Source: Cenococcum geophilum 1.58 (Eukaryota > Ascomycota > Dothideomycetes > Gloniales > Gloniaceae). Taken from it: 64,000 nt of DNA. Positions 5,431 to 59,540 of this stretch are shown one piece after another. The notes under the pieces are model-generated. The model had not been told where the DNA came from and did not search any database. It worked only from the letters and a program-made list of their open reading frames with translations. The translations under genes and the position numbers were made by a program. Position 1 is the first letter of the stretch. The number at the start of each line of letters is the position of its first letter. Location: assembly GCA_001692895.1 (NCBI GenBank), contig KV748211.1, positions 496,001 through 560,000 of the forward strand, written 5' to 3'.

Positions 5431-7130
5431 TATGTCTAAAGTCTCTTAAGGATATAATTCTTTTTAGCATTTAGATTTGCCCCCTTCTTATTATATATTT
5501 CACGTTTGGGCGTTCTTAACTAAAGGGAGTTATTATAGTGACTATAGTAGGAGTCTTAATTAGTATTTACAGTAATTAAAGCGTTAGGCTCGGCGAAATA
5601 CTTATATAGTGTTTCCTTAATACACTCGTAATTGTTATATAGCTGGAAAAACTCATCTCTTATCTCTATACGCTTTTACTTATCTTCCTTTTTACCTCCC
5701 CGCTTTAACTAGATGGTGTTACTAGCTAATAAGTCGTCCGAGTTTATAGAATTAACTGACGGTGATTGGGATCCACGTGATGGTAATAGTTAAGAGGTAG
5801 AAGAAGGGTAGGATAATAGTGCGTAGGACTGTCGCTGTTGGTGAGCATTTAAACGGTATACTGCCTTTAGCTTTAGCTGTGGGAGTAGGTCTCGTTCGCC
5901 AAAGCACTAGTGTTTAAATAGAAAGATTACTTTAGCCCTTCTACTATTGCGACTAGCTCGACCACCACGCTATAAAAGAGGAGAGAAATGTTGTTTAGGC
6001 GCCGGTATTATATATATAACCGCTCTACGGACATCTAAAAGATTAACACTAAGCCTAATAGCCTTTATGGCAAAAATAATTTAAATCTTAGAAGATTCTG
6101 CCGGTTTCCTAAACTTATCTAGAATTAACTTCTTGCTAAATAATGAGGTTGTTCAATAGAATATGGCCATGATTAAGCGGGTGATATTCTTAGTATATTA
6201 AGCTAGATATAGCTGCTGTAGGTACTTAGATATACTTCTATACGCCTCTATAACTTAGGCTCTGGTGTTAAAGAATATAATAGTCTTTAGAATCTTATGC
6301 GGAGTAGCTAAGCGGCTCCCTCCCTAAAAGACGGCAGGATTAATATATGTTTTAATAGTTGGAGGATTAATAGCCTTATTAAGAAGGAAGCGGAGCGAGG
6401 TGTATTTAGTAATTATATCCTTTAGTATTTAGCTAAGATGAAAAATAAGCTCTCTACGGGAAATAGAAGTCTGCTTAAGGTGTATGTTAGTATTATTAAA
6501 GCCTAAGGACTTCTTTACCGTTTCTAATGTTTCTGGATTAAAAGTTGTAGAATAGGTAAACCACGGAACTAAGCTTCTAATTAGATTGCGTATATAGCGT
6601 AGCTGCGCATACTTAGGGCGAAACTTCTTACCCCATTGTATAATAAGATAAGCTTTATTAACAACGACCAAGGCCAATTGCTTCTTAAACTTAGGGTCTT
6701 TAAGTAGATCTCGGAAAGATGGTGTACTGGCAAGCTTAGGACTAATGAAGATATAGGTATATAGGCCGGATCTTATATTCTTAAGCGCTTTATCTATATC
6801 CTTAACGTTAGCGTTAAGGAGCAGCGCATTACTACTAATCTGATTAACCTTTTAAACTTGCTCTTTTGCAATCTTGTTTAGAGGAAGAAATATTAGCAAT
6901 ATAGTATTTTTATAAAGGATTCAAATTACTTATATAATAAGGCTTTTACTAAAGCTGGTTTGTGCAATAAGGATAACGTTAATGCAATTATAGATCAGCC
7001 TCCGAATATAGGTTACCTGCTTATTTTTTGCATAGAATTCGTCGCCGTATAGCAGTAATATAGTACCTTGAATTGCGTTATCTCGTGCTTAAGTTGTTGT
7101 ATTGGGCTTTTTCTTGTCTTGGATTTTTCT
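5430..7130 (-). pseudogene. Decayed RecQ-like superfamily 2 DNA helicase
   Basis: Read on the minus strand, the helicase motifs appear in order: a motif I remnant ILIAQTSFSKSLI (about 6,965-7,000), motif II LVVVNKAYLIIQWGKKF where DEAH-type enzymes have DEAH (about 6,620-6,670), then a motif III-like segment, and later SVNLLDVRRAV (motif V) and RGGRASRNSRRA (motif VI) near 5,930-6,060. The stretch 6,429-6,677 is still open for 82 codons. Enzymes of this type unwind DNA using ATP, and fungal genomes carry many copies near telomeres and in mobile elements. Here the Walker lysine-serine is kept, but the catalytic DE pair has become NK and many TAA/TAG codons interrupt the frame, so it cannot be functional. 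A second family member lies at 41.6-43.5 kb. There are no telomere repeats in the window, so a subtelomeric origin is only a guess. Confidence 0.75.
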
Positions 7131-37512: not shown

Positions 37513-39471
37513 TAGTTTCTTTTATTTTTCGCCTTATAAGTAAATCCTTAAAGTTTTCTTACTTTTTAATCTTAGTATTAATTTCTTTAATAGTCCTTAT
37601 TTATATATTAAAGTCTTAGTCTTATAAAACTCTTCATTTTAAGCTCGCTTCTTTCTTAAGCTTAGCTCTAGCCTTAGCCTAACTAGGCTTCTATAATACT
37701 CTTATCTTATCTTAAGAATCTTAAATCTTACTTATCTTACTTTAAGAATCTTATACCTTTAGAAAACTTTATCCTAAGCTTATTTATATATTTCTAAACT
37801 AAGCCATTACTCTACCTTATTAGTTATTATCTATTATAGGTCCTTAAGTGTATCTTATCTCTTCTTAAAAATCTTAAGCCTTTAGCCTTTAGCCTTTATT
37901 AAGTGGTAAGTTAGTACTAGTAGTCGTCTACTTACTTAATCCTTTTTCTTAAATATTTCTCCTTCCGTTTTATAAAGTAATAGATACTATATCTAATAGT
38001 GTTATAATTTTTATTACTAACCCCCGTTCTATAATGGTCTTAGTTTTTACTTTTAATATAACCTTCCTAAGGTTTATATACTCCTAGTAAGCTGCCTTTA
38101 TTACCTTATTATTACTAAATATTTTACCTATATTAAATTTATTNTCCTTAANANCCNATCTATAANNTAGTTTATTANTTCCTTTAAACTNTAATAATTT
38201 TAGCTTCTATAGCTAATAGCTTACGCTATACTTAGCGTCTTTATAAATTTGGTATATGTTATTATAGCAAAACATAAAACTCTTAATTAAACATTCTTTT
38301 GTTCCTTATAGTATATTATTATCCCTCTATATATATATATTATCTACTAGTCTCGTTTTTTTTACTATATGGTAATTCTTACCACTTCTATAGTCTCTAA
38401 TAAAAATAACCTTATTTTCTATAATTTATATAAGCTCCTTCTTTAAACTATTTTTCCTACTATAGAGTCTGCCTAAACGTCTTCTACTACTAGGATTCCT
38501 AATTTAGCCTCTACTCCTTAGTCCTATAATTACTTAATCCTTAACCTCTAGGTTTCTATAGTTTCTTATTTTATTTTCTAGATTCTTTAATACCGCTTAA
38601 GTCTATTAATTCTGCACTATACTATAGTTTCTAACTTTAACTTTATTGTTATATACTTTACGCCTTATATAACTATAGAACTCTATTTTAACCCTTCTTA
38701 ATCTATTCCCTCTAGTAGATTCTATTATTAATCTTAATTACTTAATTAATTAGATCTTATAGGGTTTTCGCATCTTCTATTAAGATAATTATATCCTAGA
38801 CTTTTACTTTAAGTCCTTATTTATACTATACTATAAGCGCCTTATTATTTAATTTAACTTATATAGCTAATGTTTAAAACTACGTTATATACTTAATTAC
38901 TAAGGTTTATTATATTAGGTTTTAAAGCTTTTATTCCACTATAGTAGTTACTTTTAGGTCTCTAAATATCTACGTTAACTATTTTATAAACCCGCTCTAG
39001 CTAGTAAATATATATTATACTTCCTAATTAGTAGTTGCTATGCTATATTCTTATACCTCTATAAGATAGTATTTAAACTACTTAAGTGCCCTCCTAATTA
39101 GAAACAATCCTATATAGGCTACTTAGTCTATAAATATTACTAGCTTCGTTCCCTCTTATATAACTTTAAAGTATATTTATATAAGAAATCCTTTAAGCTT
39201 TAACTTCTCTCCTAAGAATTGTTTAATTAATAGTAGCTTAACCCTAGCTACTCTAATTCTATTAATTCGTTCTTTAAGGATCCTGTTATTATCTATTAAT
39301 GAATTAACTATTTTCTATAACTATCTAACCATAACTAGTTATAAGTTAGTATTTACTATACTAGTGTTATTACCTAATCTTAAAGTAGTTGCTGCCGTTA
39401 ACGGCATTATAGCTAGTGCTTTTAGTAGTATATTGTTTAACTTTATTAATATTATAACTAGGTAGTAAATA
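37513..39471 (-). mobile_element. Gypsy-2a internal segment (gag side)
   Basis: It aligns with about 56,460-58,550 of Gypsy-2b in the same orientation, for example CTTTATAAATTTGGTATAT at 38,238 and 57,306. Minus-strand gag/leader region, broken many times. Confidence 0.7.
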
Positions 39472-39636
39472 TATAATAAAGCCTTATAGGAGATACTATG
39501 GTAGACTTATTAATGGGCTAGGTATATAGGTAAATAAGAAGTTAATAACGTAATAATAACTAGTTAAGTGGTTGCCTAATAAATTAACTCTAATTATATT
39601 CTAAGATTTACTATAAAGAAGAGAACTATTTATATA
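39472..39636 (-). repeat. Gypsy-2a 5' LTR, first piece
   Basis: This piece is the Gypsy-2b LTR from its first base to the TA where D2 inserted. The first bases, TATAATAAAGCC, are a RIP-altered TGTAACGGAACC. The LTR resumes at 59,910. Confidence 0.75.
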
Positions 39637-39954: not shown

Positions 39955-40275
39955 TCTACCTATCTACCTATTAACTTACCTACCTGCCTATCTACTTACC
40001 TATCTACATTGCCTACCTATCTGCATTGCCTATTGTCTATATCGTCTATATCTGCCTACCTGTTAGCATCTACCTACTTATTTGCATTTGCTTGCCTATC
40101 TATATCTGCTTACTAATTTGTATTTACTTACCTATTTATATCTGCTACCTATTTGTATCTACCTACCCATTAGCATCTACCTACCTATCTATATCTGCTT
40201 GCCTATCTACATCTACTTACCTATCTGCATCTACTTACCTATCTGCATCTACCTACCTATTAGCATCTCCCCGTT
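39955..40275. repeat. CTACCTATCTGC-type array in D2
   Basis: Imperfect 12- to 18-bp units (CTACCTACCTATCTGCAT and variants), the complement of the CAGACAGGTAGG array in D1. The two open plus-strand frames here (about 80-93 codons of Tyr/Leu/Ile) come from the repeat. Confidence 0.85.
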
Positions 40276-40344
40276 TATGCCTACCTGTCTATACTACCTT
40301 AATTTAATCAATCGATTAAATTATTTATAGTGTTCGCTAGCTAG

Positions 40345-40605
40345 TTGTTATCGTCTAGTTCTGGCGACGGTTGTCTAGCTTTAGCGACGGTCGTCTAGTT
40401 CTAGCGACGGTTGTCTATCTCTAGTAACAGTTGTCTAGCTCTGGTGACGGTTGTCTGGCTCTAGCAACAGTCGTTTAGCTCTGGCGACGGTCGTCTAGCT
40501 CTAGCGACGGTCGTCTATCTTTAGCGACAGTTGTTTAGTAACGGCGACAGTTATCTAGTTCTAGCGATAGTTATCTAGTTCTAGCAACGGTCTTCTACTA
40601 GCTGC
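40345..40605. repeat. 20-bp minisatellite in D2, about 12 units
   Basis: Units of GTCTAGCTCTGGCGACGGTC with mostly transition variants. Followed at 40,611-40,640 by CCTCCCTAGGTAGGAAGGAT, whose complement is near 28,850-28,885 in D1. Confidence 0.85.
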
Positions 40606-40714
40606 CGTTCTAGTGCCTCCCTAGGTAGGAAGGATGTAAGAAAGGAAAGAAGGGTAAAAAATAAGGCGGCTATATAGGTAGAGATATATATAGAGGCTAT
40701 TAGGAATATAGCGG

Positions 40715-40803
40715 GGACCTAATGTAGAGCTTTATGTGAAGCCTTTATATATAGAGCTTCGCGTAGAGCCTTGTGCAGAGCTTTATATAGAGCCTCCGTA
40801 CGC
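40715..40803. repeat. 12-bp satellite in D2, left piece
   Basis: Units of the GTAGAGCTTCGC / GTGCAGAGCTTT type, ending at CCGTACGC, where element H inserted. Confidence 0.75.
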
Positions 40804-41639
40804 TTATCTTAGTTAACTTATCCGCTTCGCTAAGGAATTTAAGGAGGCGGCCCCTGCCCCCGTCCCACTTCACCGTGCTATAGCCCCACTCTAGTGCCAT
40901 AGGCCCTCTTATATAAACTTATAAGCCAATTAGACGGTCGCTCCAACTTATAGGTACTTATTAGCTAATAGAACGCCGCGCTACCCTCTACTACCCCTAC
41001 TACCCCTAAAATTTCCTCTATAAAGCGTCTAAGAGATTATAAGTACGCGTTTAGTATAAACTGGGTCCTTTTTCTAACGCGTGTTAATTTTAAATAACTC
41101 TAGCGGCGTAAATATACCAGCTACGGTCTTAGTGCGCGATGCATTTAAATTATAATCTCTTCTTTTATATAATTATAATAATTGTAACTAGCTAACTACC
41201 GTATTAGGGGGCGAGATACAGCCTTAAAGTTTAAGGGCGCGTTTTTAAAACTGGTTCCTCTCTACTAGTTACATTAAAATAATGGCCGTACTCTACTACT
41301 ACCACTCTATTTCCTTCTAAATTTTTAAAGGTACTTCTTCTACCCTATAATAACTAGCTTGCCCAGTTAAACTATACCTATATTACCGTTATGTTGTATT
41401 CTAGTAGGCAACACAGTCGCAGTAACGCCTTTAGGGCGCTTAGCCTACGTTAGAGCACTCTAGTAATACCTTATAATATTTTAATAACTTATAGGAACTT
41501 ATATAAACTTACACAAACTTATATAAACTTATTAGCTAATTAGAGGGTAGGAAATAGTAAAGTACGGATTAAAATTAAAGAAGAAGTTAAAGAAGTTAAA
41601 TACTTAGAGTCACTAGTATAAAGCTTATATTATGCCGCT

Positions 41640-43470
41640 ACCTCTACTACCTCTACTAGCTATACATATGTTAGCTAACCATAATTCTATTCTAAAGACA
41701 CTCCAGTTTATTAAGAGGCTACGCGTAAAAAAGTTACTATTGGTTATATAGCAGGCAGCGCAATTAGAGAATATAGCATTTTAATATAGAGTTGTAGACC
41801 TTTATCTTCGGCGAATTATTCTCTAAACTAGTCCGTTAGTTAAGAACTTTAAGCCGCGCTATAAGTAAGTGCATACCTTACGTTAGTTAATATTTAGAAA
41901 AGGCGATACCCTTCTAATTGCTTATATAGGCTTTAGTAAAAGCCTAATCTTCTATATATATACGGTTTTAACGGGTAAGATTACTATTTAGATTATTCCG
42001 CTTAATAAGCTAGGTAATAAGCAATTAGATAATATTAGGAAGATAGAAGAATATAACCTAGTTTTTATTAATACTAAAACCCGGAGTTAGGAGAAGGGAC
42101 TAATTATTTAAATTTGGGAGGGAGTATATACTTATATTCTGCTTAATCCTAAATAGGCATTAACTAAGGCATTCTAGGATGCTCTAAAAGAACCGGAGTT
42201 GCAGTTATAAATTAGGCTAGTTGTAATTAATAAGTGCTATCTTATTAAGGACTAGGAGAGCTTTTAACCGGCCTATATAATATTAGGCAAATTATAAATA
42301 ATCCTCCGCTTAGATATAGTCTAGTTTACCTACTCTATAACTTTTAATAAAAAGGTAGAAAGGCTAGTCCTATTAAAGGCCAGATTATAAATAGTTAGCC
42401 GTCATTTTTACCAGACTAAGATTATTAGGACCTCTATTAATCGTCTAGATATATTAATATCTATCCACCCACTACCTAGGAAAAAGGTCGATTTATAAAA
42501 GCACCTATATTTCTTATTAGATAATTGCGTTAATAATAATAAGAAGCCTACTTTGGAGATAATACTGAAGATAATAGTTTTTATTAATGGGCGATTGTCT
42601 ATTTAGGCTGTAGCTATATACCTTCGGACTATATTGCTATAAAAGGGGTATTTAATAAATACGGTAGATAAGACTATCTATATTAGTACTATAGTTTAGG
42701 AGTTTACTATAACCGTATAGAAGTATAACCGCACTTAGTAATATACTAAGTTTAAAAAAGCTACATCTAGTATTAGAATTATAATAGCTATAACCTTACT
42801 TAGTATAGGTGTAAACGTCCCAGATATTAGGCGCGTAATTATCTAAAAATTCCTATTATTAAGAGCTTAGCTAATATATAGTAGTAAATCGGTTAAGGCA
42901 GATAATAAAAGGATTACACTAGTATAGGATATATTTTCCTACCATACTGGGTCTTTAACACGAAGGGGGGAGATATACTAAAAAGGAAACTACTACTACC
43001 TAAGGCGAAAGCACCTACTTAGGCGCCTTAAAGGGATCGTAACAGCTTACTAGCTAAGTATACCCGTAGTTAACTTATATAGAGCTTTACACCTAGTAAT
43101 ATTAGCGATACTAAGAGTATTACTAAGAGTATTGCTAAGAGTGTTACCTCTAAGAAATTAACCGTAAGCTATAATTCTATAGCTATAGCTACTAAAGAGG
43201 ATAGCCATTTATTCTAAATAAGGGCTGAAATAGCAAAATATAAGAAGTTACCGGTTAAGTAGAAAGAGATAGTAAACGGGGTATATTATTAGAAGGCCTT
43301 TCTTTCCTTTTTAGGAGAGGATAGGTTGCCACCGGCTATACTATAGCGTGTTATTCGTGCCCCAGTAGATTAATGCTATAGTTATTATAACCCCTTACTT
43401 ATACCTAAGCTTATATTACCCCCTATAGCTCTAGCGCCGCTTTATTAACTATGGGCCAGTATATAGTCTA
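41640..43470 (+). pseudogene. Decayed RecQ-like helicase of element H
   Basis: Plus-strand helicase motifs are in order: LLIAYIGFSKSLIF (motif I remnant, about 41,910-41,955), LVVINKCYLI (motif II position, about 42,215), then KIIVFINGRLSI (motif IV), SIRIIIAITLLSIGVNVPDI (motif V, about 42,770-42,830), and KGNYYYLRRKHLLRRLKGIV (about 42,980-43,040). The last is typical of a family of fungal repeat-borne helicases. A C-terminal RAPVDQCYSYYNPLL near 43,350 fits their cysteine-bearing tail. Such proteins unwind DNA with ATP. Many TAA/TAG codons and loss of the DEAH pair make this copy non-functional. It differs clearly from the helicase at 5.4-7.1 kb. The frame may run on to about 44,600, but I cannot name that part. 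Confidence 0.8.
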
Positions 43471-46230
43471 CTGTTATATTAGAGTTTCTTAATATATAGA
43501 CAGCCGAGCAGGCTAAATTAATATACTCCAGCCTATACTAATAATTCCCTATACTATTAGCGGCGTTTTTAGGCGAGGAGTCCGCTAGTAGCTTTTATAC
43601 TTATTCTATAGGGACATAACTAACGCCTTTTAGGATAAAATTACAGCCAAATCTCTAGAAATTGCGGGGCCCTTACTTATCTTATAGTAGTATCGTAAGG
43701 CCTACGGCAGCTAATTAGTTAAGTAGCTAAAGGGTATAGTTAAGCCAGTTAGATTAGCTAATAAAGAGGCTCTAGTAAAGAAGCGGTAAGTAAAGGCTGC
43801 TTAATGGACTAAGGACTCTAAGGGCGAGGTTTTATTAGCACGTTAGTTACTAGAATTATTTATACTAAAAGAGTACGCAGTACACGTCTAGAGGTGGGAT
43901 AATAGCCTTACTATATAGGTTATTAGACGAGAGGCTGTATAGGGTATAGTAAAATAAAGCGTAGTAAATGGGCTGTTTTTACTATTTAGAACCTGGGTTA
44001 CTAGTAGAATAGATAGGTCTGGCCTATTGTCTATATTACTAGGTATCCTATATAGTGTTAAACGCGTGGCCTAGGTACTTAAAGAGGTCCAAAGGCTAAT
44101 TTTAAGGTTAATAATGCTAATAACGCCATATGTTACGTCTGTGGAGGGGAGCTATAATATTAATACGCCCGGCTTTTAGGATCCCGTAATTCTAGACTTT
44201 TAAAAGGTTACTACTTCTAATTTATAGAATACTATAATTTCTAACTCCTAAGGTATAGTCGTTCTTAATTTACAGCTAGCTATTGTCCTAGATTTGCAGG
44301 TAAATACTATCCTTAATTCTTAACCTATAGATATAGCTGCTACCTAGCCGTATATAGCCTTAGTATTAGGAGCTATCTTTATGCTATTTTAGAAAAGACA
44401 AGGTAATACCTAAGGGGATTTACTTACTAAACGTTAGACAGCCTTATAGGAACGGGATAGAAATACGGATATAGTACCGCGGGAAAGAGATATAACTATA
44501 GATGTAGTGCTTGTATTTACCCCAAGAATAAGGGCTAGGCGTATTAGGAAGGTAACGCTAAAGGGAGAAGAAAACTTCTTAATAGAGCCGTAGATAGATA
44601 GGCCACTTAGCGCGACCTAATTAGCTAATAAGTTTATATAAGTTAACGTAAGGATCCTGGAATGTAGATAGGGCATATAGTAGAGGTAGAAAGTAAGTAG
44701 TTAAACCCTAAATCAGCTGCCCTAATTAGCTAATAAGTTTATATAAGTTAGTATAGGGATCCTAAAGTATAACTAAGGCGTATAGTAGACGTAGGAAGTA
44801 GGGAGTAAGCAGTTATATCCTAAGTCGGCCGCTCTAATTAGCTAATAAGTTTGTATAAGTTGGCGCGGGGATTTTATTATAAATAGGAAATATAAATAAG
44901 CTATTAGTTCCTACTATAGTATACTAATTAACCTATAGGGCGTTCTAATTAGCTAATAAGTTTATATAAGTTACTAAAGGGAGTGCTAGGGATATTATAA
45001 GGCCTATATAAGGAGGTAAAGATCTATTTTAGCGTGAAGTAATTAGTCTATAAGATTGCATATATTAGGTTAGGTCTAGCGCCTTAGCTTATTAATAGTA
45101 AAGTAAGTCCTATAATAGACCTTTACTTCTTTTTCTCTTCCTCTTTAGATACTTACGGTACTATAATTTTTTTAAAAGCCTCTAATATGTCTCTTACTAC
45201 CTAGGTACTTATATATCTACTAAACTTCCCGCTTTAGGAGGAGCAAATCCTCCTCCTTACCGCTACTCTTTTACGCGGCTAACTAAGATTAGGGACTATC
45301 CGGCGTCCTCTATAAGTATTATCCTATTTAGTTCTTAACTATTTAAGCGTCCTAAGGAGTTAGGGATTATCTTAAGGAGCTGGGAGACGGGTAGCTATAC
45401 TTCCTTCTATTTAGTAGACCTATATACTAATATTCTTCTTAGTCCTCCTCCTCGCCCGCGCCGCCCTCGCCTACGCGTCCTCCCCTCTTCTTCTCCTCTT
45501 CTACCTCCCGCCCCCCTTTTTACGCCTACCGCCCCCGCTACGCCTACTAGCCCTATTACGCCCACCTTTCCCCTTAGCGGCGATAATAATAATAATAATA
45601 ATAATGGTATAGTCGGCCTCGCTGGGTATATATACTATAATGCCTATTATATTAATTATTAGCTTATATATATATAGACCTATAACTTAGCCGCCTACCC
45701 CTGCCGCTAGCGCTACTTTAGGTCTTCCCTTTCCTCTTACCTAAGTAGGCTTCTATACCGCCTAATTTGCTAACTAGCCGCGCCTGCCTTAGAATTAGTA
45801 ACTTTAGGGCAAGACTATAGATAGCTATACTGCCGTCCGCTAGAGTAAGTAGTAGTTATCTCTCTAGACGGCTAACGGTAAGAGAAACCTCTTTTATATT
45901 AGGAGGATTATAAAAACGGAGCTAGGTAAGCAGCTTTATAATAAGGATTAGTGCCTAGCTTACTAGGAGGGTAGCTAAAAGTGCTAGGTTTACTCTAGGG
46001 TAGGTACCTAGTAGGTGTATAAGCCTAGGGACGCTTATGCCCGCTATTATATAAGGGCCCGCCCTAGTAGATACTCTATCTTAAAGCGGGCTAAGCCTAA
46101 GCCTTAGTAGGTATTACTAGCTCCGCCCCTATAGCCCCTATTACTAAAGGGACCGTAACTACCTTCGCCTAGAGCTAGGGGTATAGGGTTAATAGTATAG
46201 GGGATAAGGGGGTAGGATTTAGTGTAGTAT
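43471..46230 (+). pseudogene. Further plus-strand coding remains in element H, function unknown
   Basis: Stretches keep codon-like phase with RIP-type stops at about 43,470-44,600 and again at 45,150-46,200. The latter has a Pro/Arg-rich part near 45,430-45,560 and a GATAATAAT microsatellite at 45,579-45,605. I recognise no domain. Between them, 44,620-45,000 is a tandem repeat (separate entry). Confidence 0.35.
44619..44990. repeat. ~105-110-bp tandem repeat headed by the H motif
   Basis: Four copies of the ~26-bp motif at 44,620, 44,725, 44,836 and 44,947 are spaced about 105-111 bp apart. The intervening sequences are related in the first two or three (GGATCCT, GTATAGTAGA, GTAAGCAGTTA). 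Confidence 0.7.
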
Positions 46231-46439
46231 AGCGTATCTTTAGACTCCCTTTACGGGGAAGGCTTTAACCTTGTTTTGGTAAAAGCTAGTATTTTAAAAG
46301 GGTTTAACTATAAGGCTCCTTATAGGTAAGCTTTAACCTTATCTAGTTAGTTTAGATCTTATATAGGTAAAGAAGCTAGTATCTTAGGCGGGCCCAACTG
46401 TAGGCGTTATAAGCCCTATAGGTTAGGACATGTGGACTT

Positions 46440-46700
46440 AGCCTCTATCCCTAAAGAGAGTAGGCTTAATAGGCCTTTACTCTAGCGGAGTAAAAGGAAA
46501 ATAATAAGTAAGTATAGTAGGCCTCTGCTTAGTGGAGGATTAGGTAAGTAAGTACGGCGGGCCTTTACTTTAAATGGATAGTAAATAGGTAAGTAAGTAT
46601 AGTGGGCCTTTATTTATAGTAGAAGTGGAGTAAGTATAGTGGGCCTCTGCTTTAAATAGATAGTAGATAGGTAAGTAAGTATAGTAGGCCTCTGCTCTAG
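46440..46700. repeat. ~50-bp repeats with AAGTAAGTATAGTGGGCCTC
   Basis: About five imperfect units of TAGGTAAGTAAGTATAG followed by GGGCCTCTGCTT. They are non-coding and within element H. Confidence 0.7.
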
Positions 46701-47699
46701 GTAGAACGAATTTACTTTCTTATTTTACTATTAACCTACTACTCTAATAGCGTAATATAATTGCATCTATTACTAACGCATAAAATTATAGATGGAGGCT
46801 AGTATGCAGTTACTATACGTAGGTAATAGCCTCTACTTTTAGCGGGGGTCTGTTAATATAAGCTGCTACTACTCTAGATACCCCTAAACTCTTATAAACT
46901 TATATAAACTTATTAGCCAATTAGGATAAAGCTAGGGGCTTAAGGATATTATCGCAGCTTAAGCAGAGGCCCTATATTAAGATGTCTTTTATAGGTACTA
47001 GCTATTACTCCTATTAAGTTCCGCTAATATAGGCCTCTAAATATCTCCTAAACTTATATAAACTTATATAAACTTATTAGCTAATTAGGGTAAAGTAGGG
47101 GGTTTTAGGTTAAGATATATTGTCTAGCTAATAGCTTCTACCCCTTATAGATAATAGCTTTTAGCCTTTATTAGGGCCTATTAATATAGGCTCTAGCCCC
47201 TAATATAGTAAACCCCTAAATAGCGGGCTCTAATTAGCTAATAAGTTTATAAGAATTTAGGAGATATCTAGGTCTAGGGGTAGGCTAAAAAGAAAGAAAA
47301 ATTTAGGAGCTATTAGGAATGGGGTTAGTAACCTAGGAGTCTAGCCTCGCCCTAATTAGCTAATAAGTTTATATAAGTTTAGGAGATATCTAGACTAAGT
47401 CTTTTAGCCTAGCTTACGCTTTAGATTATCTACCCTTAGGTTTATATCCTAAAGCTAAACCTATACATTTTAAGCTCTAAGAAGCGGTAATACCTATATT
47501 ATTAATTTAAAGTGCTATAGGATAATATAGCTTATTTAGTATAGACTAGTATAGGGCGATTGTTTAATATAATTAAGGCTATATATAGGGCTGGGGTAGA
47601 GGGGCCTTATAGGGTAAGGGAGAGGGAAACTCGTAGGGCGAACTAGAGAGGAAAGCTGCGCTTTAATTAGCTAATAAGTTTGTATAAGTACCCCTAAGT

Positions 47700-50640
47700 T
47701 TATAGGCTACTTAAAGCCTCCTAGCCAGCAGAAGGCATATTGGAAGTAAGATTTAGTTCCTTTACGTTATCTATCCCGTCTCTAATAACGTTAATAAAGT
47801 CTTATATATCTATAAAGCTAGCTAGGTCCTCTATATCTAAAGGAGGATAAAAGGTAGTAACTAAACGCGGACCCTAAATATAAACCTAGTTAAACTTATT
47901 AACCTTCCTTACTAAAACTTCTACTTTAGTGCTAAAAATATTATAAGAATTAAATAGGCGTAGGCCTACTAGCTGTGCTTATTGCCGTAGTATAGCTAGG
48001 TTACTAAAATAGAGATTCCGAGTAAGTATAAATATATTAAGGTCCGCCTTTACCCGTATATAGACACCTAATATCTCCTTACTAAATATATATTCTATCT
48101 TACTACGCAATATTCTAACTATTGTATTTAATAAGTATACTTAATTAAATATAATATCTATATCGTAGGTAGAATTCTTATAGCACTTTATCTTGATTTT
48201 ATAGCTTTTATTTAAGTACTCTAGCCCAAAATTAATAGCCTTATACTTGTCTAGAGCTCTAAACCAGTTTATTAACCTAGAGAATAGGATTATATACTAA
48301 AGTTTAGGCGAATTAACTAACGTAAGATTCTACTAATAGAATAGCATCTCTTAACCGTAATTATGCTGCGACGTGCCGAAGAAGAATATAATAAGGGGGT
48401 TAATAAGCCGCCGTAGTATACCTATATTGGTATGCTTAATAATATGCTAAATAGTAAGTAAAAGCTTAACCTCTTAAAGCATGTAACACATTGTCTAAAA
48501 CTTAATATTATTATACTTCGCGCCCGTCTACGTATTCTAAGAAAAGGCGTTACACTAAATCTTATTAATGATGTCTAGGAACTACTTAGGCGTAAGGCAG
48601 CCGATGGCCCAGGTAGCGTCTTTAATACACTTAGGGGAAGACGGGTTAGATAGGGTGTTTAGATTAAACGGCTTAGATAAATCGGGCATACTAATTCTAA
48701 AGCCTTAACGCTGTATAGTAGTATAAAAGAGAGTAGTTATACGCGCTATAAAACCCCGTTTAATAATAGGTACTAACTTATAGTATTTAGCATTCTCTTA
48801 TATAATTATAGAGCAATTTTATAGCGTTATATTAGACTATAGAGAGTAATAAGCCTCCTTTTACTTATCCTTAGGCGCAAAGTGTGTACGCATAAGAGTA
48901 TTATATAGATTTATCTTAATATAGAACTATATAGGTATACTAAGCAGCCAGTCCTAATGGTTAAAAGGGCGGCTAGTATAAATCTATTTTTATTTTACCG
49001 ACCTAATATAATACATAGTAAGCTAGTCACTATAGGCAAGCCAGAGCTGCTTAGTAAAATTATTAGGAGTAGTGCTGTTATAAGGGTTATCTAGAGCCTG
49101 GAGACTAAGCTAATTAAGGAAAATGCTTTTATAGACGCTATAGGTACCTTAGATAGTACTTTTATCCTCTATAATAGTACTAAACTGCTAAAACCTAGTC
49201 TTCCTATTGCTAATATATTGTATATTTAGTATTTAAGGGAAAAGATTACTCTCTTTAAAGATACACTCTACACTAGTAAGGTAAACCCCCTTTATTGCAT
49301 TAGCAATAAGGTAATGGCTAATCTATAGTAATAACTTATTGCTAAAGCCGGAAGAGCGGTAGATGTCCTTAATATTTAGTAGGATAGTTAGATTATATAT
49401 TAACTAATATAGCCCTAACAGAGGCAGTTTAAGACAGTAAATAATAGTAGTAGTTATTAAGGAGTGTATAACAGACGTATAACTAAGTAGCTTATCGCGC
49501 TTTATATCCTTAAAATTTATATTATTATATATAATAACTATTTAGGGGTTATGCGCTAGCGTTGTAAGATACCTTTATAGATGTTAGCCTCTAGCTAGCT
49601 AGTAGTCTATAGAGGCCATACTAATTGGCTTATAAGTTTATAAAAGTTTATATAAGTTTAGCTAAGAGGCCGGGGTTAATAGATATACAGTGCTAATATA
49701 AAAACTAATATACCTTTACCTCTTCGGCAATACTACCTATAGTATAATTTGCAGAATAATAACTATAGTATAATCTAAAGCTAGCTAACGTTTTAAACAC
49801 CTTCCTTTTTATACTAAAGCCTATAAGATATATATCCACTATTAAAGAAAGGAAATTAGACTAGTTTTTAGCCTAAGAGAAATAAATTATACTAGTAATA
49901 GCATATGCCCACTTTACTAGCGTATCCTAGCTATTTACCTTCTAGCCCTCCGCCTTTTAATTGCTATAACTAGCCCTATACGCCCGCTAATTGCTAAATA
50001 GTTATATTAAGGTTGTATACTATCTTAGGGTAGTATCCTGTATAGAGCGGAAGGCGACGTTAAAATCTAAGTCTTTAATTCTTAACGTTTTATTAAACGT
50101 GGTAAAATATAGTTCCTAAATAAGGCGATTTAGCTCCGTAGTATATAACTTTATTTATATATATAGGATATTACTTAGCTATGGGTCTCTTATAACTATA
50201 TCTAATAGAGCCTAATACCGCTGCCTAATATAACTATACTAATAGTACTTAATTATAATTCCCTTCTCCCCTATGTTATCTGCCCTAACCTAAGTAGATA
50301 GGAACTAAGCGAAGCTCTAACCCTCTTTTTTTAACGTGTTAACTACAGCTTATAACCTCCGTGCGTACTTTCCCTACTTTCTATAACGCCTTAATAAAGG
50401 CTTAGGCGCCTTATTCTTATTACTACCTGTCTAGTTATCGCCTATATTATTGTTATTATTACTATTAGAGGGCTTAAATAGCTTAGTAATATTTTCTAAC
50501 TAGCTAGAGAGGCTAGAAATAGAGGGGGGATAGCTAGGGGTGTTTTGGTTAGAGTGATACCCATTTAGGGCACGGCTGGGCTTTATTATGGATAGATTCT
50601 GTAAAGTAAGAGGAGGGCTTTTAAATAGAGGTATTAGCGA
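47700..50640 (-). pseudogene. Long decayed minus-strand frame in element H, unrecognised
   Basis: On the minus strand a single phase can be followed over much of this stretch with RIP-type TAA/TAG breaks. The piece at 47,730-48,270 reads for example YLLNTIVRILRSKIEYIFSK and LDIEDLASFID. The composition is Lys/Ile/Leu-rich and looks protein-like, but I cannot assign it. As the second large frame of H, next to a helicase, it is the best candidate for a mobility protein of this element. Confidence 0.4.
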
Positions 50641-50750
50641 GTTAAGCGGTAGTATATTAGGGGGCGATATACCGCGTTAAAGGCGATATAACCGTCGTCT
50701 ACTAGGTAGGCTGGTCTGCCTTTATAAATCGCGCCTATTTTCCCTTAGAC

Positions 50751-51177
50751 TGTAACGGAACCTTATAGTAAGAACTATAGTAGGTCCTGTTATTAGGCTA
50801 GGTGTATAGGAAATGCAAGTATAAAAGTTAATAACGTAATAATAACTAGTGGAGTAGTTGCCTAATAGATTAACTCTAATTGTATTCTAAGAATTACTAT
50901 AAGGAAGGAACTATCTAGGTAGGGACTAAGGGTCCTTAAATATACAACCGTACTCCTAAGAAATCCTTCTTGTACGTGATATACGTGTACTCTATCTGCT
51001 CTGTTATAGATTATATAGATCCTATAGATTATATAAATTACCCTACGTGACCTTAGTTACTATTCCTCGTTATATAGCTCTATTGGCTCTATTCTAGACC
51101 GTGCCTAAATTAACTAACTAGCTTCTTCCAACTCTTCCCTAAGTAGTCGTAATATTATACTTAAAGCGTCCGTAATA
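50751..51177 (-). repeat. Gypsy-2b 3' LTR
   Basis: 427 bp. It ends GTAATA where the partner ends GTAACA, a single transition. Confidence 0.88.
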
Positions 51178-54129
51178 CCATCTCCCTCCTCTTAATCTTT
51201 GTCCTTAAAGATTCTAAATATCTTTAAGTTATTTACTAGAGGTATAATATCCGTCTAATTAATTTGGTTAATATTATTGCTTATTATACCTAAAGCAATT
51301 TCTTCTTCTTTAACTGCTTGTCGTACTCGCACTATTACTGCGATATTATCTTTTAGTGAGATTATACCATCTCTATATTCTCGCTGTTTGAAAGAGGGGT
51401 TGGTCTGTGTTGCGTTAGCGAACCCATCTTTGTGATAACTATCCTCTTGCTTAGAGTGCACTAAAGTGAATATTTATTTGTCCTATAACGTTTGCTCTGT
51501 CTCTAATGCTAAATATACGTAACCTATTACTTTTAATAGTTGTCTAGTTCTCTAATTAATTTATTTTAGGGTCTTATATTTAATCTACTGCTATACGGCT
51601 TAATAATAAACTGTCTGTTACTCTTACTAAATTGCGTTGTTCTTAGGACGCTAAATGGGAGGTAGCCGATGCTTAGCAACGGGCCCTTAAGTCTCGTCTA
51701 GCGGCGTCCGCTTAACTAATCCGTCTTAAGAAGGTGTATAAAAAGGTTTGTTTTAAGGAGTGGAAACTTATAAAATAAGGTTTATAGGAACTTGGCGATA
51801 AAAGAATGGATTCTCTTCTAATAGAGAAGGAAATAGATCTAAGTACTTCGGCAACTGCTCTTCTTAGGTCCCCCTTAGGTAACTTATTTTTTAGCGATCC
51901 TTTTTTATTAATACTGCCTAACCTAATCTCTTCTAATACTCCTATACCTTTTTTATAGCGTTCTTTAAATTTTCTAGTGGCTCCTAGGTAGTCTTAGTAT
52001 AGCCTATCTACTTTACCTTATACTATATTTCGTCCTTAATGTCCTTATAGTTAACAATCTTTAAAACTTACTATTTGTCTTCTTCCTACCCTCTATATAT
52101 GTCTGCTTTATAGGCTAATAGCCTAATATTCCTATATGCTGGCTCTAGCATTATAATGTGCTGTATAGGGTAGATCTTTATTTTAGCTAGTAGGTTTAAC
52201 TTAAACGTGACCAGTAAAATCTTTTACGTAATTTTAAAAGGTCCTAGTCTAACGTAGTCCAATTTCTTACTTAGTTGTTAACTCTTAAAATTTTTGTATA
52301 GTAGCTATACTTTATCTCCCTCCTTAAGATCTGGTCCCTTAGATCTCTTAGTATTATAGTACCTTTTTATTTTTTTTTGTACTTTCTTTACTAATTCTAT
52401 AAGGTCTATATAAAGATTTATTAATATCTTTATTTTTTCTTTAGCTATACTACTTGTTTTCTTCGCTTATTATAGTAATAATAATATTCTTAACTTATAT
52501 CCGTAATTTACCTTAAATAGTAATATGCCTATTCCTTTTTAAGGTGTTATATTATACGTAAACTGTATAACTGGTAATAGTAATACCTAATTATTCTATA
52601 TATGATTAATATAATGCCTTAGATACTATTCTAGTGTTTAATTTAATCTTTCCGTCTAACTGTCTGTCTGCGGATAGTATATAGTGGAAGTTGCTACTTA
52701 AACTCCTTACTTTGCTAAGAATACCTTTTAGAATGCTACTACAAATCTTAGATCTCTATCCGATATAATCTTGCTTAATACTCTATGTCTTATAAATACT
52801 TCTTTAATATAGATTCTAGCGACATCTTTTACTAATATCTCTTCTGTATAGGCTATAAAGTATCCCTACTTTGTAAGCTTATCTACTATTACTAAGATCG
52901 CGTTGTGATCTTATCCGGTAATAGGGTCTCTTAATTTTAGTAACTTAACGATAAAGTCCTATAATATGACCTCCTATAGTCTCTTTAGTATTTTAATAGG
53001 TTATAGCCCTCTATATGGCTTATGCCTTATTAGTTTATTTCTTTAGTAATTTAGACACTCCTTTATAACCTTCCTGGCTATCCTCTAGATTCTATTAATA
53101 ATGTACTCCTTTTAGAGTCTTAATACTAAGCCCGTAGCTCCGTTGTGTCCTTAAGTTAATCCCTTATAGAATTCTTCTATAAATTGCTCTGCTATGCTTC
53201 TTAGGATGTACTTTACTTCTTAATTTTTATATATATCCGTTTATAGATCTTCTAGCTATACTTCTAGAATCCTTTATTCCTAAAAGTTCTCTAGTGACTT
53301 ATAAACCTTATTTAACTTATTATCTTCCTAAGTTGCTATGATTTTTGGATAATTATACCTAATTAATCCGTTTATATCTTTTCGTAGTAAAGCCCCTAAT
53401 GGCTTTTCATCGTTCTATAGTTTAGCTTTGCGGCTTAGAGCATCTACCTATATATTATCTATACCCTTAGTATACTAAATCTTAAAATAGTATTCTGTAA
53501 GCATCTCTGCCTATCTAACCTGTCTTTAGTTAAGTTCCTTTATTATTAGGAATCCTATTAGGTTCTTATAATCCGTCTTAACTATAAATGGTTTCTCTGT
53601 GCCTTATAAAAATACTCTCTATTTCTTTAGTGCTATAACTATACCTAATAACTCCTTATTATAGATGTTATAGTTTAACTTTAGTGGTGTTATCCTTTAA
53701 CTATAGTATGCCACTAGGTGCTATCTATTTTAATACCTTTATATAAAGTATACCCCTAGTATATAATCTAATGCATCCGTTTCTACAACCGTTTCTAGTC
53801 CTAGTTAATAAATTTTAAAAACTGGCTCCTAGGTAAACAACTCTTTAATTTTCTTAAAGAGTTTTTGCTATTCCTCTCCCTATACCCATAGTTCTTCTTT
53901 CTTTATTAATCGCGTAAGTGGCTTAATATCCTTTAACTACTGCGCTATAAACCTCCTATAGTAATTGCAAAACCTTAAAAACGATCTTAACTGCGTAACG
54001 TTCTCTAGTTCTTACTAATTCACTATAGCCTTAATCTTTTTTAGATCTATACTAAGTTGGCCTAGTTTAATAATAAATCTAATAAAATCGGTCTTCCTAG
54101 TAAAGAACTCGCATTTCTTAATTGCTACT

Positions 54130-54368
54130 GTGGGAGGGTACGACCACTCTCAGATAGGAAAGTCACAGTGCTGTCTGTCTGTCGGTCGGTCGGTCGGTCG
54201 GTCGGTCGGTCGTCAGTCGTAATCAATCAGTAGGAAAGCAGTCAGTAAGAAGAAAGGAAAGAATGTATTTTCGGTAGGTTCTGATGTGTAAGAAGGAGGG
54301 AAGCCGAAGGCTTGATATATACAGGAAAATGCCAAGGTACTAGGCGTAAGCCATTTTACCCCACCACA
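54130..54368 (-). repeat. Solo LTR of the gag-bearing fossil family
   Basis: 239 bp between CTACT repeats (54,125-54,129 and 54,369-54,373). Gypsy-2a has the empty site TACTACTAATATC at 24,286-24,298. It contains the CGGT microsatellite and matches the LTR at 21,287-21,527. It is little affected by RIP, so it is one of the last insertions in the nest. Confidence 0.85.
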
Positions 54369-57300
54369 CTACTAATATCTATTCTTCTTATAGTCTCCTT
54401 AAGACCTATTTAATATATTCCCCGTGTTCTTCCTTAGTTATTAAGTAGATAATAATATTATTAAAATATACTATAATAAATTCATCTAAGTATTCTCTTA
54501 ATACATTATTAATACGCTTCTAAAACATTGCTAGTGCGTTTATAAGCCTAAATTATATAACTAATAGTTCGTATAGTCCTTCCTTTGACCTAAAAGCTAC
54601 CTTTTATTTATTGCCTTCCTTAATTCTAATCTAATGGTACGTCTATCTTAGATCTATCTTTATAAAAATTTACGCGTTACCTATCCTATCTTAGATTTCG
54701 CTAATTAAGGGTAAAGGATACCTATCCTTTCTAGTAATGCTGTTTAACTATCTATAGTCGATATATAGCCTTAGTTTGCTATTCTTCTTTAGTATAAACA
54801 GTACTAGATAACCTGCTAATAACTGCGATGGTCTAATATATCCCTTTTATAGGTTTTCTTAGACAAACTCTTTTAATACTCTACCTTCTTCTTTAGTAAG
54901 CTTATAGATTAAAAAGAACTTTAGACTTATTCCTAGTTCTAACTCTATCTTATAGTCCTATACTATATAATTTAATAGCTTTTTACTTTCCGGTAACCAT
55001 AGTTTCTTACTATATTTGTAGTATCTCTTTAATATATAACTTAAGCCTTGCTTAGTTTCTTTATATATCGCTCTAACTTAGTACTATACTAACTTGGCTT
55101 ATTGTTATACCTTATAGCGTCAAGTATCTCTAATATTAACCTAGCCTGTAATCCAATTAATCCTTAGATTGTATTCCTATAACTAAAGTATACCTAATAC
55201 TGCCTCATCCCTTTCTAATAGTAGGATATCGAAAGACATCTTAATTTATCTCCCTTTAATAGTTAGCTAAATAGGTCCTATTTCAAGATTAATAATCCCT
55301 CCTCTATAGGCTATTGGATCTCCTAAAATTATTACTAATAGGTAAGGTTCCTCCTTTTGCCTATAAGGTAATCCCATTCTCTTAACTGCTGTTAGCGAGA
55401 TATAGTTCCTTATTGCTCTACTATCTATTAATGCCTTAAACTATTAATCTTGCTATTTAACTTATAAATTTAGGTATTATCCTTAAATTCCTTTAAGGGT
55501 CTAAGGCTCTACTACTAGCTCCCTCTAGTCTTGTAGGCCTTTACTTTTCCTAACTATTAGCTACTTAATCCTTGTGCACTTGGCTTACTCTTTAGCCAAT
55601 ACCTAGTTTGCTTTTTGTCTTTAATATACTATAGATATATATTCTCTAGGTATTCCCACTACTATTATTCGTCTAAGCATTCTTCCGTAAGGAATCTTTC
55701 TAGTTAAAGTATTAAGTTGCCTAACTCCTAAACTTCCGCTAGATGCTAGCTATGCATATACTTAGCATTCCTATATTATTGCTTATCTATTATCCAATAT
55801 ATCCTTATAGGGTATTTCTAATTTTTTTCCTTTAGATTCTTATACATCTTATATATATCGTCCATATATGCAATCCATAATAGCGTATAGTATGCTAGGT
55901 GCTTTAGGTCAACTCTTAGCTCGTCTTTATCCTTAAGTTTAAACCTTTACTATGCTGATCTAAACGTTGCGACCTCGTTTGTAGGTACTAAGATGCGCTT
56001 CTTACTTCTCTAGTCCTCTAATCGTTTCTCTAGATCCTTTAATATTATGATTAAGGCTCCTTTAATGTGACTTATAGCCTTCTCTATAATTAGGTAGTCT
56101 TAGATAACTTTTTTATCTAACTATATATAGAAATCTTCCTACTCATCATTGTGTTGTTGTCTATACTACTTTTAGTATAGCTACTAGAGTGTATACGGCT
56201 TGTCTGTAAGGAAGTATCTTCTTATTACTATGTTGTAACAGCCCTTAGTATGTCGTTCTTTGAACCTAGTAGGAATTCCTAAATCCTCTTTATTTTCCAG
56301 TTCGGTAAGCTACTTAGCTCTTAGTATGCCTGCCCTAGGCCTATTAGTAATTCTTTATATTAGCGCTCTGTCCTTTATATGTCCCAATATGCTAGATCTC
56401 TTATCTAGTTTCTATTCTTACTATGCGATAATTCTTTGCCTAAATTTCTCTATAGTTTCCTTTAGTTTATATCTTACGTTTAGATTCTTAAAATCTTTTT
56501 ACTTCTTAATCTTGGTATTAACTTTTCAATCTTTAGTCTAAACACTGTATTCTACTAGTAAGTCCTTTAGGTCCATATATCTGTCTTTTAGTCTAGTTAC
56601 TGTTTATATCGCAGATTCTCTAATTTATAAAGAAGCCCTTTACCTCTTATCTGTGGGTGTTCTGATTTGTACCCTAAATTCTTAACCCCTTAGATTCTTT
56701 AATCCTAAGCTTACTTTTAACTTAAGCTTAGCTCTAGCCTTAGTCTAACTAGGCTTACTTAGTGTTCTTATCTCGTCTTAAGAGTCTTAAATCTTACTTA
56801 TCTTGTCTTAAGAGTCTTATACCTATGGGAAACTTCGTCCCAAGCTTATTCGTATATCTTTAAACTAAGCTACTGCTCTGCTTTATTGGTTTTCGTCTAT
56901 TATAGGTCTTTAAGCTTGCCTTATCTCGTCTTAAGAATCTTGGTCGTCTTTTATCTTATCTTAAGAATCTTAAGCCTTTGGCCTTTTGCCTTTATTAAGT
57001 GCCGAAGTAGTTTGCTGTCCTACTTCTCTTATATCTTATAAAGCGATAGACATTGTGTCTAGTGGGGTTTTGATCCCTACTAATATTCCCTATTCTATAG
57101 TAGAATTATCCTCTACCTCTAGTGTAACATCTTTAATGGCTACGTGTTCCTAATAAACCGCTCTTATTACCTTATTGTTACGAAATATTTCGCCTATATT
57201 AAAATTATTGTCCTTAATATCCGATCTATAAACTGGTTCATTGGTTCCCCTATATCCTGTAGGTGCTAGCTCCTATAGCTAGTAGCTTGCGCCGTACTTA

Positions 57301-58550
57301 GCGTCTTTATAAATTTGGTATATATTGTTATAACAAAACGCAAAACTTTTAATTAAACACTCTTTTGTTCCTTGTAGTATATTATTATCCCTCTATACGT
57401 ATATATTGTCTGCTGTTAGTCTAGTTCCCTTTATTATATAGTATCTCTAACTATCTTTATAATCCCTTACGAAGTGACCTTGTTTTCTGTAATTTATATA
57501 AGCTCCCTCTCTAAACTATTACTTTTGCTATAGAGTCTGCCTAAACGTCTTCTACTGCTGAGATCCCTGGTTTGGCCTCTACTCCTTAGACCTTTAATTA
57601 CTTAATCCTTATCCTCTAGGTTTCTACGGTTTTTTGCTCCATCTCTTATAGGCTTTTTTAGTACTACTTAGGTCTATTAGCTCTGCGCCATACTATAATT
57701 TTTAATTTAGCTTTGGTTGTTATATACTCTGCGCCTTATATAATTATAGAACTCTATTTTAACCTCTCTTAGCCTATTCCCTTTAGTAGATCTAATTGTT
57801 AATCTTAATCGCTTAATCTATTAGTTCCCTTAGGGTGTCCGTATCTTTTATTAGAATAATTACGTCCTAGACTTTAGCCTTAAGTCCCTATTTATACTAT
57901 ACTATAAGCGCCCTATTATTCTACTTTACTTATATTGCTAATATTTAGAACTATATTATATACTTAATTGCTAAGGTTCGTTACGTAATATCTTAGAGTT
58001 TTCTTTTTATTATAGTTACTGCCTCTAGGTCTCTAAATATTTGTATAAGTCGCTCTATAAATCCGTTCTAGCTTAAGAACATAAACTGTACCTCTTAGTT
58101 TATAGTTATCATTTTATTTACCTGGATTTCTATAAGGTAAGGCTTAAACTATTTAAGTACTTTCCCTATTAAGAACAATCCTGCGTACGCTATTTAATCC
58201 ATAGGTATTGCTAGCTTAGCTCCTTCTTACGCTACCTTAAAGTATATTTACGTAAGGAATCCTTTAAGCTTTAATCTCTTTCCTAAGTATCTTTTAATCA
58301 ATAGTAACTTAACCTTTGCTGCGCCTATCCTGTTAATCCTATTTTCCAACGTTATATTATTTTCTGTTAGCTAGTCAACTATCTCTTATAGCTGTCCAAC
58401 CGTTACAGGTTGCTATAAGTTAGTATCTGCTATACTAGTATCGTTACCTAACCTTAAAGTAGTTGCCGCCGTTAATAGCGTTATGGTGGCTGCTTTTAGT
58501 GGTATATTATCCAACTTATTGTATTTAATACTGTAACTAGGTAGTAATTG

Positions 58551-58977
58551 TGTAACGGAACCTTGTAGTAAGAACTACGGTAGGTCCTGTTATTGGGCTA
58601 AGTATATAGGAAATGCAAGTATAAAAGTTAACAACGTAATAATAACTGGTGGAGTGGTTGCCTAATAGATTAACTCTAATTGTATTCTAAGAATTACTAT
58701 AAGGAAGGAACTATCTAGGTAGGGACTAAGGGTCCTTAAATATACAACCGTACTCCTAAGAAATCCTTCTTATACGTGATATATGTATACTCTATCTGCT
58801 CTATTATAGATTATATAGATCCTATAGATTATACAGATTACCCTACGTGACCTTGGTTACCATTCCTCGTTATATAGCTCTATCGGCTCCATCTTAGACT
58901 ATGCCTAAATTAACCAACTAGCTTCTTCCGACTCTTCCCTAAATAGTCGTAATATTGTACTTAAAGCGTCCGTAACA
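58551..58977 (-). repeat. Gypsy-2b 5' LTR
   Basis: 427 bp, TGTAACGGAACC...GTCCGTAACA, followed by the target duplication TAGAC. Confidence 0.9.
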
Positions 58978-58982
58978 TAGAC

Positions 58983-59219
58983 CCTTAGAGAGGAATCTAG
59001 CTCAAGGCTCTGTAATTGGCTACATTAGCTAGCGCAAGCGCTAGCGCCGCAGGCGGCGTGCTACCTACTACTGATTGGCCTATAAGTACCTATAAGTTGC
59101 AAGGGTGCTAAATATAGGCCCCTGTGGCGCAGCGCCAGCCGCTAATTAGCTCATAAGTATATATAAGTTCGTAGGCCCGGGCCGAATTCCTCTCCGAGGG
59201 TCTAAGTTAACTGAGATAA
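58983..59219. other. Right end of element H
   Basis: This resumes H after Gypsy-2b. It holds a hairpin-like GCTAGCGCAAGCGCTAGC, two copies of the H motif and the right TIR. It is GC-richer than the rest of H. The ends of this piece (GACCCTTAGAGAGGAAT and the complement of ATTCCTCTCCGAGGGTC) are themselves inverted, so a small MITE could be embedded here. Confidence 0.55.
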
Positions 59220-59227
59220 CCGTACGC

Positions 59228-59540
59228 AGAGCTTCGCGTAGAGCCTTGTGTAGAGCCTCTATACGTAGAGCTTCGTGCAGAGCTTTGTGCAGAGCTCCGT
59301 GCAGAGCTTCGTGCAGAGCCTTGTGCAGAGCTTCGTGCAGAGCCTCCGTACGCAGAGCTTCGCGCAGAGCCTCTGTACGTAGAGCTTTGTGTAGAGCTTC
59401 GTGTAGAGCTTCGTGTAGAGCTTCGTGTAGACCTCCGTGTAGACCTTCGTGTAGAGCTTCGTGTAGACCTTCGTGTAGACCTTCGTGTAGAGCCTTGTGC
59501 AGAGCCTTGTGTAGAGCCTTATGTAGAGCCTCTAAGTAAT
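59228..59540. repeat. 12-bp satellite in D2, right piece
   Basis: Units of CGTGTAGAGCTT / CGTGCAGAGCTT, the complement of GAAGCTCTGCAC, about 25 copies. It joins to the left piece at 40,715-40,803 once element H is removed. A 97-codon open frame (Cys-Arg-Ala-Ser repeats) is an artefact. Confidence 0.88.

Follow-up and report, generated by a model that had tools for sequence, protein, structure and literature searches.

Several DNA transposons that carry a helicase have already been described. In PMC10045372, the AcademH elements (Kojima, 2020, Mob DNA 11:15) are presented as DNA transposons that encode a helicase and occur in animals and fungi, and target-site duplications of 9 or 10 bp are given for AcademH and of 3 or 4 bp for AcademX, these lengths being related to the helicase and the nuclease. 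According to PMC10799480, AcademH elements are present at low copy number in Ascomycota, Basidiomycota, and Mucoromycota. According to the extract of PMC9587614, KolobokH is a fungi-only DNA transposon whose RecQ helicase follows downstream of the transposase domain, and Kolobok-1_CCri has its RecQ on the complementary strand. As far as the excerpts of the corresponding articles go, DTX-chim_G199 of Colletotrichum higginsianum is a subtelomeric RecQ repeat with HTH and DDE motifs (PMC5576322), and X26 of S. nodorum is a subtelomeric, RIP-affected RecQ repeat (PMC3017866).

We have analysed a window of 64,000 nucleotides from Cenococcum geophilum 1.58 (the whole stretch of DNA under study; C36:496001-560000), using as search space the genome of 177.2 Mb in 162 contigs. 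A sequence-only reading of this window had proposed a transposon with terminal inverted repeats (TIRs) carrying a RecQ-like helicase, here called element H, and this main claim is supported by the existence of other copies with their own 8-bp duplications. Element H is a RIP-damaged copy of a DNA transposon occupying positions 40,804-59,219, an 18-kb span that includes a nested LTR retroelement. Our preferred reading, to which we give a probability of about 0.82, is that H is a dead DDE-type transposon with a DUF6589 gene and a RecQ-like helicase as its machinery, similar to AcademH and probably a relative of it. The element had also been called possibly undescribed, which is doubtful for its kind, since AcademH and KolobokH are already published as helicase-bearing transposons in the parts of the literature cited above. 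The features of the locus are the following:

40796-40803, no strand: left target-site duplication of H, CCGTACGC (flank reading)
40804-40820, plus strand: left TIR of H, TTATCTTAGTTAACTTA (17-mer scan; the copies in C74, C91, and C53 start at the same base)
40804-50750, plus strand: main part of H, ending at the nested LTR element (C74, C53, and C91 contain pieces with 80-87% identity, the similarity in C91 extending only to 45,678)
41869-42840, plus strand: RecQ-like helicase gene of H, RIP-broken, aligned part only (tblastn with the family B helicase)
44618-47690, no strand: main cluster of the 27-bp motif, with 9 of its 14 matches (motif scan)
48072-49493, minus strand: DUF6589 gene of H, candidate transposase, RIP-broken, aligned part only (Pfam and tblastn)
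50751-58977, no strand: nested LTR retroelement, not part of H (LTRs of ~425 bp, 93.6% identical; 5-bp duplication TAGAC)
58978-59219, plus strand: right end of H (relatives in C52, 82%, and C7, 79%, reach the same last base)
59203-59219, minus strand: right TIR of H, TTATCTCAGTTAACTTA (17-mer scan)
59220-59227, no strand: right target-site duplication of H, CCGTACGC (flank reading)

The matching 17-bp ends reported for H are real, but they agree at 16 of the 17 bases. The window contains only two exact matches to the H 17-mer, which are the two ends of H, and nine matches when up to three mismatches are allowed, versus a shuffle mean of 3.33. At the genome scale, the degenerate 17-mer was found 17 times, the reversed control giving 0 and the chance expectation at equal base frequencies being ~0.04. 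The target duplication is exact, as previously claimed, with the 8 bp CCGTACGC on either side. Taken alone this duplication is weak evidence, because the same 8-mer recurs elsewhere in the flanking minisatellite; a chance duplication within the minisatellite was considered for H and was ruled out by the copies in C74, C53, and C52 and by the search with the joined flanks described below. Once the nested LTR retroelement (8.2 kb) is set aside, H measures 10,184 bp, in agreement with the ~10 kb first estimated.

Two side observations concern this region. An LTR-type stretch at 37593-39621 is related to the nested element at 50751-58977, with an offset of ~19,070 bp. In addition, the right end of H is unlike the ends of the C74 and C53 copies, inside the terminal bases too, its relatives being those of C52 (82%) and C7 (79%); this difference may reflect subfamilies of ends or, alternatively, ends of mixed origin in one element.

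H is inserted into a dispersed host repeat rich in minisatellites. The host repeat, visible at 40031-40803 and 59220-59540, contains minisatellite units of 12, 18, and 20 bp and occurs at many dispersed places. When the flanks of H were joined with a single CCGTACGC and used as query, 38 of the best 40 genome matches listed were contiguous, the remaining 2 being the window's own two halves. The best one was C9:2741211-2741506 (query 1-300); since the right flank of H is tandem, the exact register of the matches there is not unique. These uninterrupted copies of the host repeat serve as paralogous empty sites of the H insertion. The left boundary was examined by searching the genome with 400 bp of left flank plus 200 bp of the element, and the listed matches other than the window itself end at or before 40803. 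Thus, similarity crossing the ends, which the sequence-only reading had named as the evidence that would speak against a transposon, was not found across 40803/40804 among the matches listed, the window itself excepted.

With the initial 1.8 kb of H as query, a genome search retrieved copies in C74, C91, and C53; they align from base 1 onwards at 87% identity, and their outside flanks differ. The C74 copy measures ~10.26 kb from end to end and is flanked by the exact 8-bp duplication ACGAGGCC, and the C53 copy has the exact 8-bp duplication ACAGAAGG either side. The C52 contig contains a derivative of 1,619 bp with both H end types and the exact 8-bp duplication TGTCAAAC. A short element of this group, which we call family A, was found in C26; it measures 687 bp, occurs at two places that share their flanks, and has 7 of 8 matching duplication bases. 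For the C91 copy, no right end was found within the 15 kb read. In total, six family A copies were followed, and exact 8-bp duplications flank four of them (H, C74, C53, and C52). The search for further copies with the ends of H, suggested as a check together with the original claim, was therefore successful in C74, C53, and C52, where the ends are nearly identical and each copy is flanked by an exact 8-bp duplication of its own. Three marks of a class II TIR transposon, namely, inverted ends in independent copies, a duplication of fixed length, and empty sites, are present.

The helicase attributed to H is confirmed by its homology to the family B helicase described below (27% identity; tblastn E 2e-15), and it is assigned as RecQ-like through this homology alone, its Pfam match to Helicase_C (E 0.0096) being under the cut-off. 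The second large frame, on the opposite strand, had been left unassigned. The frame is real, but it can now be assigned to DUF6589, a family of unknown function in Pfam; the profile search of this minus frame, one of the checks suggested, gave PF20231 with an E of 1.9e-28 (tblastn E 7e-21). The helicase (plus strand) and DUF6589 (minus strand) genes of H are convergent, and the element is strongly RIP-marked, with a TpA/ApT ratio of 1.88 versus 0.84 at 60.5-64 kb. Several kb between the two family A genes have no Pfam match.

The private dispersed motif announced for H also holds. All 14 matches to the 27-bp motif TAATTAGCTAATAAGTTTATATAAGTT in the window are inside H, 12 of them with up to three mismatches and 2 with four or five, and a single match was obtained from ten simulated copies of H taken together. 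The motif is also present in the relatives of C74 (12), C53 (11), and C91 (8), and it is absent from the two halves of family B and the 20 kb of C75 that were scanned. It looks like a putative subterminal and internal protein-binding repeat.

A second RecQ-like helicase remnant was noticed at 5883-7037 of the window (minus strand). It aligns with family B at 30% identity (E 2.5e-31), and a DUF6589 copy lies on the opposite strand ~12 kb away, beyond the window start, at C36:488923-490044 (plus strand). This remnant is probably another element of the kind of H; matching ends for it were not found within the window.

The genome also contains two related families, B and C, which have related TT..CTCAG ends and copies with open frames and little sign of RIP, and which provide the less RIP-damaged copies that had been suggested as worth looking for. 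Family B is 6,443 bp long, as measured between exact ends in C32 and C72, and its ends are TTGACTCAGCATGCTCAGACCA and TTGTCTCAGCATGCTCAGACCA. In C41 and C43, which have unrelated flanks, the left ends share their starting base, and the right-end boundaries of C9, C42, and C88 differ by no more than one base. The 22-bp family B end occurs at 82 exact places in the genome (control, 0), forming 18 adjacent inverted pairs less than 20 kb apart. Fourteen of these pairs were read and 11 showed exact 9-bp duplications, the exceptions being C32 (one mismatch), C38 (two), and C26 (none). Family B encodes a 957-aa frame that matches DUF6589 (E 1.1e-68) and an 883-aa frame of RecQ type (TIGR00614 E 5.4e-30, 104.6 bits versus a cut-off of 219.8).

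Family C is represented by the one copy read, at C75:754,919-765,805 (10,887 bp), with perfect 20-bp ends TTACCTCAGCAAGCTCAGAC and the 9-bp duplication CAAGAAACA. This copy, whose own TpA/ApT ratio is 0.94, has inserted into a RIP-marked B-type element near that element's left end; C41 shows the B-type sequence without the interruption. It contains frames of 302 and 629 aa, the latter matching DUF6589 (E 1.3e-70), and a convergent helicase of 1,184 aa that is 44% identical to that of family B. A tandem duplication of ~1.9 kb (76% identical) is located in C75 between the DUF6589 and helicase genes. The helicases of both families match Pfam DEAD and Helicase_C above cut-off, and their best PDB matches are RecQ and WRN. 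The RecQ zinc-binding domain gives a match below its cut-off in family C (E 0.00054; 21.1 bits versus a cut-off of 25) and a weak match in a partial frame of family B (E 0.089), the full frame being unlisted at E 0.1.

The DUF6589 protein is probably the transposase of these elements. At least 102 DUF6589 matches exist in the genome (102 of 274 candidates scored), none was detected in the 14 control genomes searched, and no relative was confirmed in viral and prokaryotic contigs. The residues D351, D511, and E787 are kept wherever covered in an alignment of 26 proteins, RIP-type changes D>N and E>K being counted as kept; they were chosen among 15 acidic columns, and the 12 other acidic columns are equally kept. 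E787 sits in the sequence NELLN..LK, a context that we take to resemble that of the last E of some DDE enzymes. As an alternative catalytic glutamate, E743 was rejected, as it is not kept in family C. When compared with PDB, a DUF6589 protein gave two weak matches (E 0.11 and 0.19), neither of them a transposase, and the alignment profile gave no match to a solved transposase; two AlphaFold2 predictions had mean pLDDT values of 31.6 and 39.7, too poor for a fold search.

This absence of similarity to solved transposases favours the alternative that survives best, namely, that DUF6589 and a convergent RecQ helicase constitute a separate, undescribed superfamily with no Academ kinship. The literature searched points the same way, as DUF6589 is not named in it, PF20231 appears only in papers that, by title, are not about transposons, and IPR046496, which we take to be the number of DUF6589, appears in none; the 8-bp duplications of family A also lie outside the 9-10 bp of AcademH. 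Nevertheless, the helicase, the fungal genome of RIP type, and the 9-bp duplications of families B and C fit AcademH, and thus we regard a separate superfamily as unlikely. A bolder and still more speculative proposal is that DUF6589 would be a large, unnamed class of fungal transposases, obligately associated with a convergent RecQ, forming a superfamily apart from Academ with a shift between 8- and 9-bp staggers, and that some repeated or telomere-linked RecQ genes would be its domesticated or stranded remains.

The arrangement of the two genes bears on whether the helicase takes part in transposition. A convergent DUF6589 gene was found within 12 kb of 33 of 51 family B helicase matches, another order appearing once and no DUF6589 being listed for 17; the 51 were scored of 422 helicase candidates and the DUF6589 matches are the 102 scored of 274, so that the 33 pairs are a minimum. 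For family A, 25 of the 60 matches listed cover the helicase part, of which five have a listed DUF6589 at 12 kb or less, convergent by strand reading, and 20, H included, have none among the matches listed. Accordingly, it could be argued that DUF6589 is the sole transposase and that the helicase is captured cargo without a role in transposition, as some listed matches of each gene lack the other nearby and elements too short for both genes, like the 10 of 18 family B end pairs that are less than 2 kb apart, bear the same ends. These short elements indicate that the genes need not be in cis. The convergent order is, however, kept in families A, B, and C in spite of DUF6589 proteins that are only ~24-52% identical between them, which makes the cargo explanation improbable. 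The helicase is probably better read as machinery, given that the convergent DUF6589/RecQ pair is conserved across three diverged families. Of the two roles initially offered for it, therefore, transposon-borne machinery is favoured and cargo is not.

The length of the duplications would, by itself, also suit known superfamilies other than Academ with 8-9-bp duplications, such as hAT, Mutator-like, Zisupton/KDZ, or Merlin. Against this very improbable assignment, all 26 aligned proteins matched DUF6589 in a Pfam scan, and the other matches (an IS110-type transposase and CSTF2_hinge, in one member each) had E values above 0.1. We know of no RecQ partner in hAT, Mutator-like, Zisupton/KDZ, or Merlin elements.

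The places of the copies examined are far inside contigs, with no telomere link seen. The stop-free family B helicase matches (8 of 51 scored) are all at or beside contig ends, the others having many stops. Five of the six left flanks of contig-end copies of family B pair with one of six right flanks over 9 bp, one of the five pairs having 8 of the 9 bases visible; C41 and the left end of C149 are unpaired. Since left and right flanks pair in this way, the contig-end copies mark places where the assembly broke within a single insertion, and not telomeres. The contig gaps C88-C43, C74-C14, C42-C16, C9-C97, and C70-C149 can probably be joined through these 9-bp duplications. The usual link of fungal RecQ repeats with telomeres, mentioned in the sequence-only reading, is consequently not seen for the copies examined, which are far inside contigs or at assembly breaks. 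The idea of a telomere-linked RecQ helicase repeat that is not a transposon draws on the subtelomeric RecQ repeats of Zymoseptoria (PMC4522978) and Colletotrichum (PMC5576322), in the parts of these articles available, and has a practically negligible probability in the face of copies that are dispersed, that end in inverted repeats flanked by target duplications, and that have empty sites, and of contig-end copies that the duplications rejoin.

When seven contig-end copies of family B were compared over 2,748 bp, N positions were the only differences. Such identity speaks for recent movement but is no measure of it, because the assembler may have put one consensus at several breaks. All in all, the less damaged relatives of H in the same genome look recently mobile.

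In the mechanism that we infer for the preferred reading, H would be the dead remnant of a DDE-type DNA transposon, mutated by RIP and later split by an LTR retroelement. The predicted DUF6589 transposase would bind the ends and the repeated subterminal motif, cut, and join the element to its target with a stagger of 8 or 9 bp. The RecQ-like helicase would be its dedicated partner, probably unwinding or processing the ends or helping in gap repair, as can be presumed from its family. Families B and C show the intact two-gene layout, and the short elements sharing the same ends suggest mobilisation in trans.

What is new here is the proposal of DUF6589 as a candidate transposase, the split between 8- and 9-bp duplications in one genome, and the copies with open frames. 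DUF6589, a Pfam family of unknown function, thereby gains a testable role as transposase. The open-frame, low-RIP copies of families B and C offer material for asking why a transposon should encode a RecQ helicase itself, and the related families with 8- and 9-bp staggers in one genome make the stagger comparable. It also follows that multi-copy fungal RecQ genes need not be telomeric.

Compared with the known systems, G199 and X26 resemble these elements in being repeated RecQ-type helicases of ascomycetes, X26 being affected by RIP like H, but in the excerpts available they are subtelomeric and no bounds by TIRs or duplications are reported, whereas the elements described here are bounded and dispersed. 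KolobokH and Kolobok-1_CCri are, by the extract used, also DNA transposons with a RecQ helicase. In contrast to what that extract describes for KolobokH, the two genes here are separate and convergent. Kolobok elements duplicate TTAA, whereas the 8-9-bp duplications here vary in sequence; no match to a Kolobok transposase was found in these elements. AcademH, in the parts of its descriptions at hand, is closest, as a helicase-bearing fungal DNA transposon with which families B and C share 9-bp duplications, and it differs from family A, H included, in having duplications of 9-10 bp instead of 8 bp. We have not classed H itself as AcademH, its duplication being 8 bp long and not 9-10 bp. On a comparison by description, H would work like AcademH and probably belongs in or next to that lineage.
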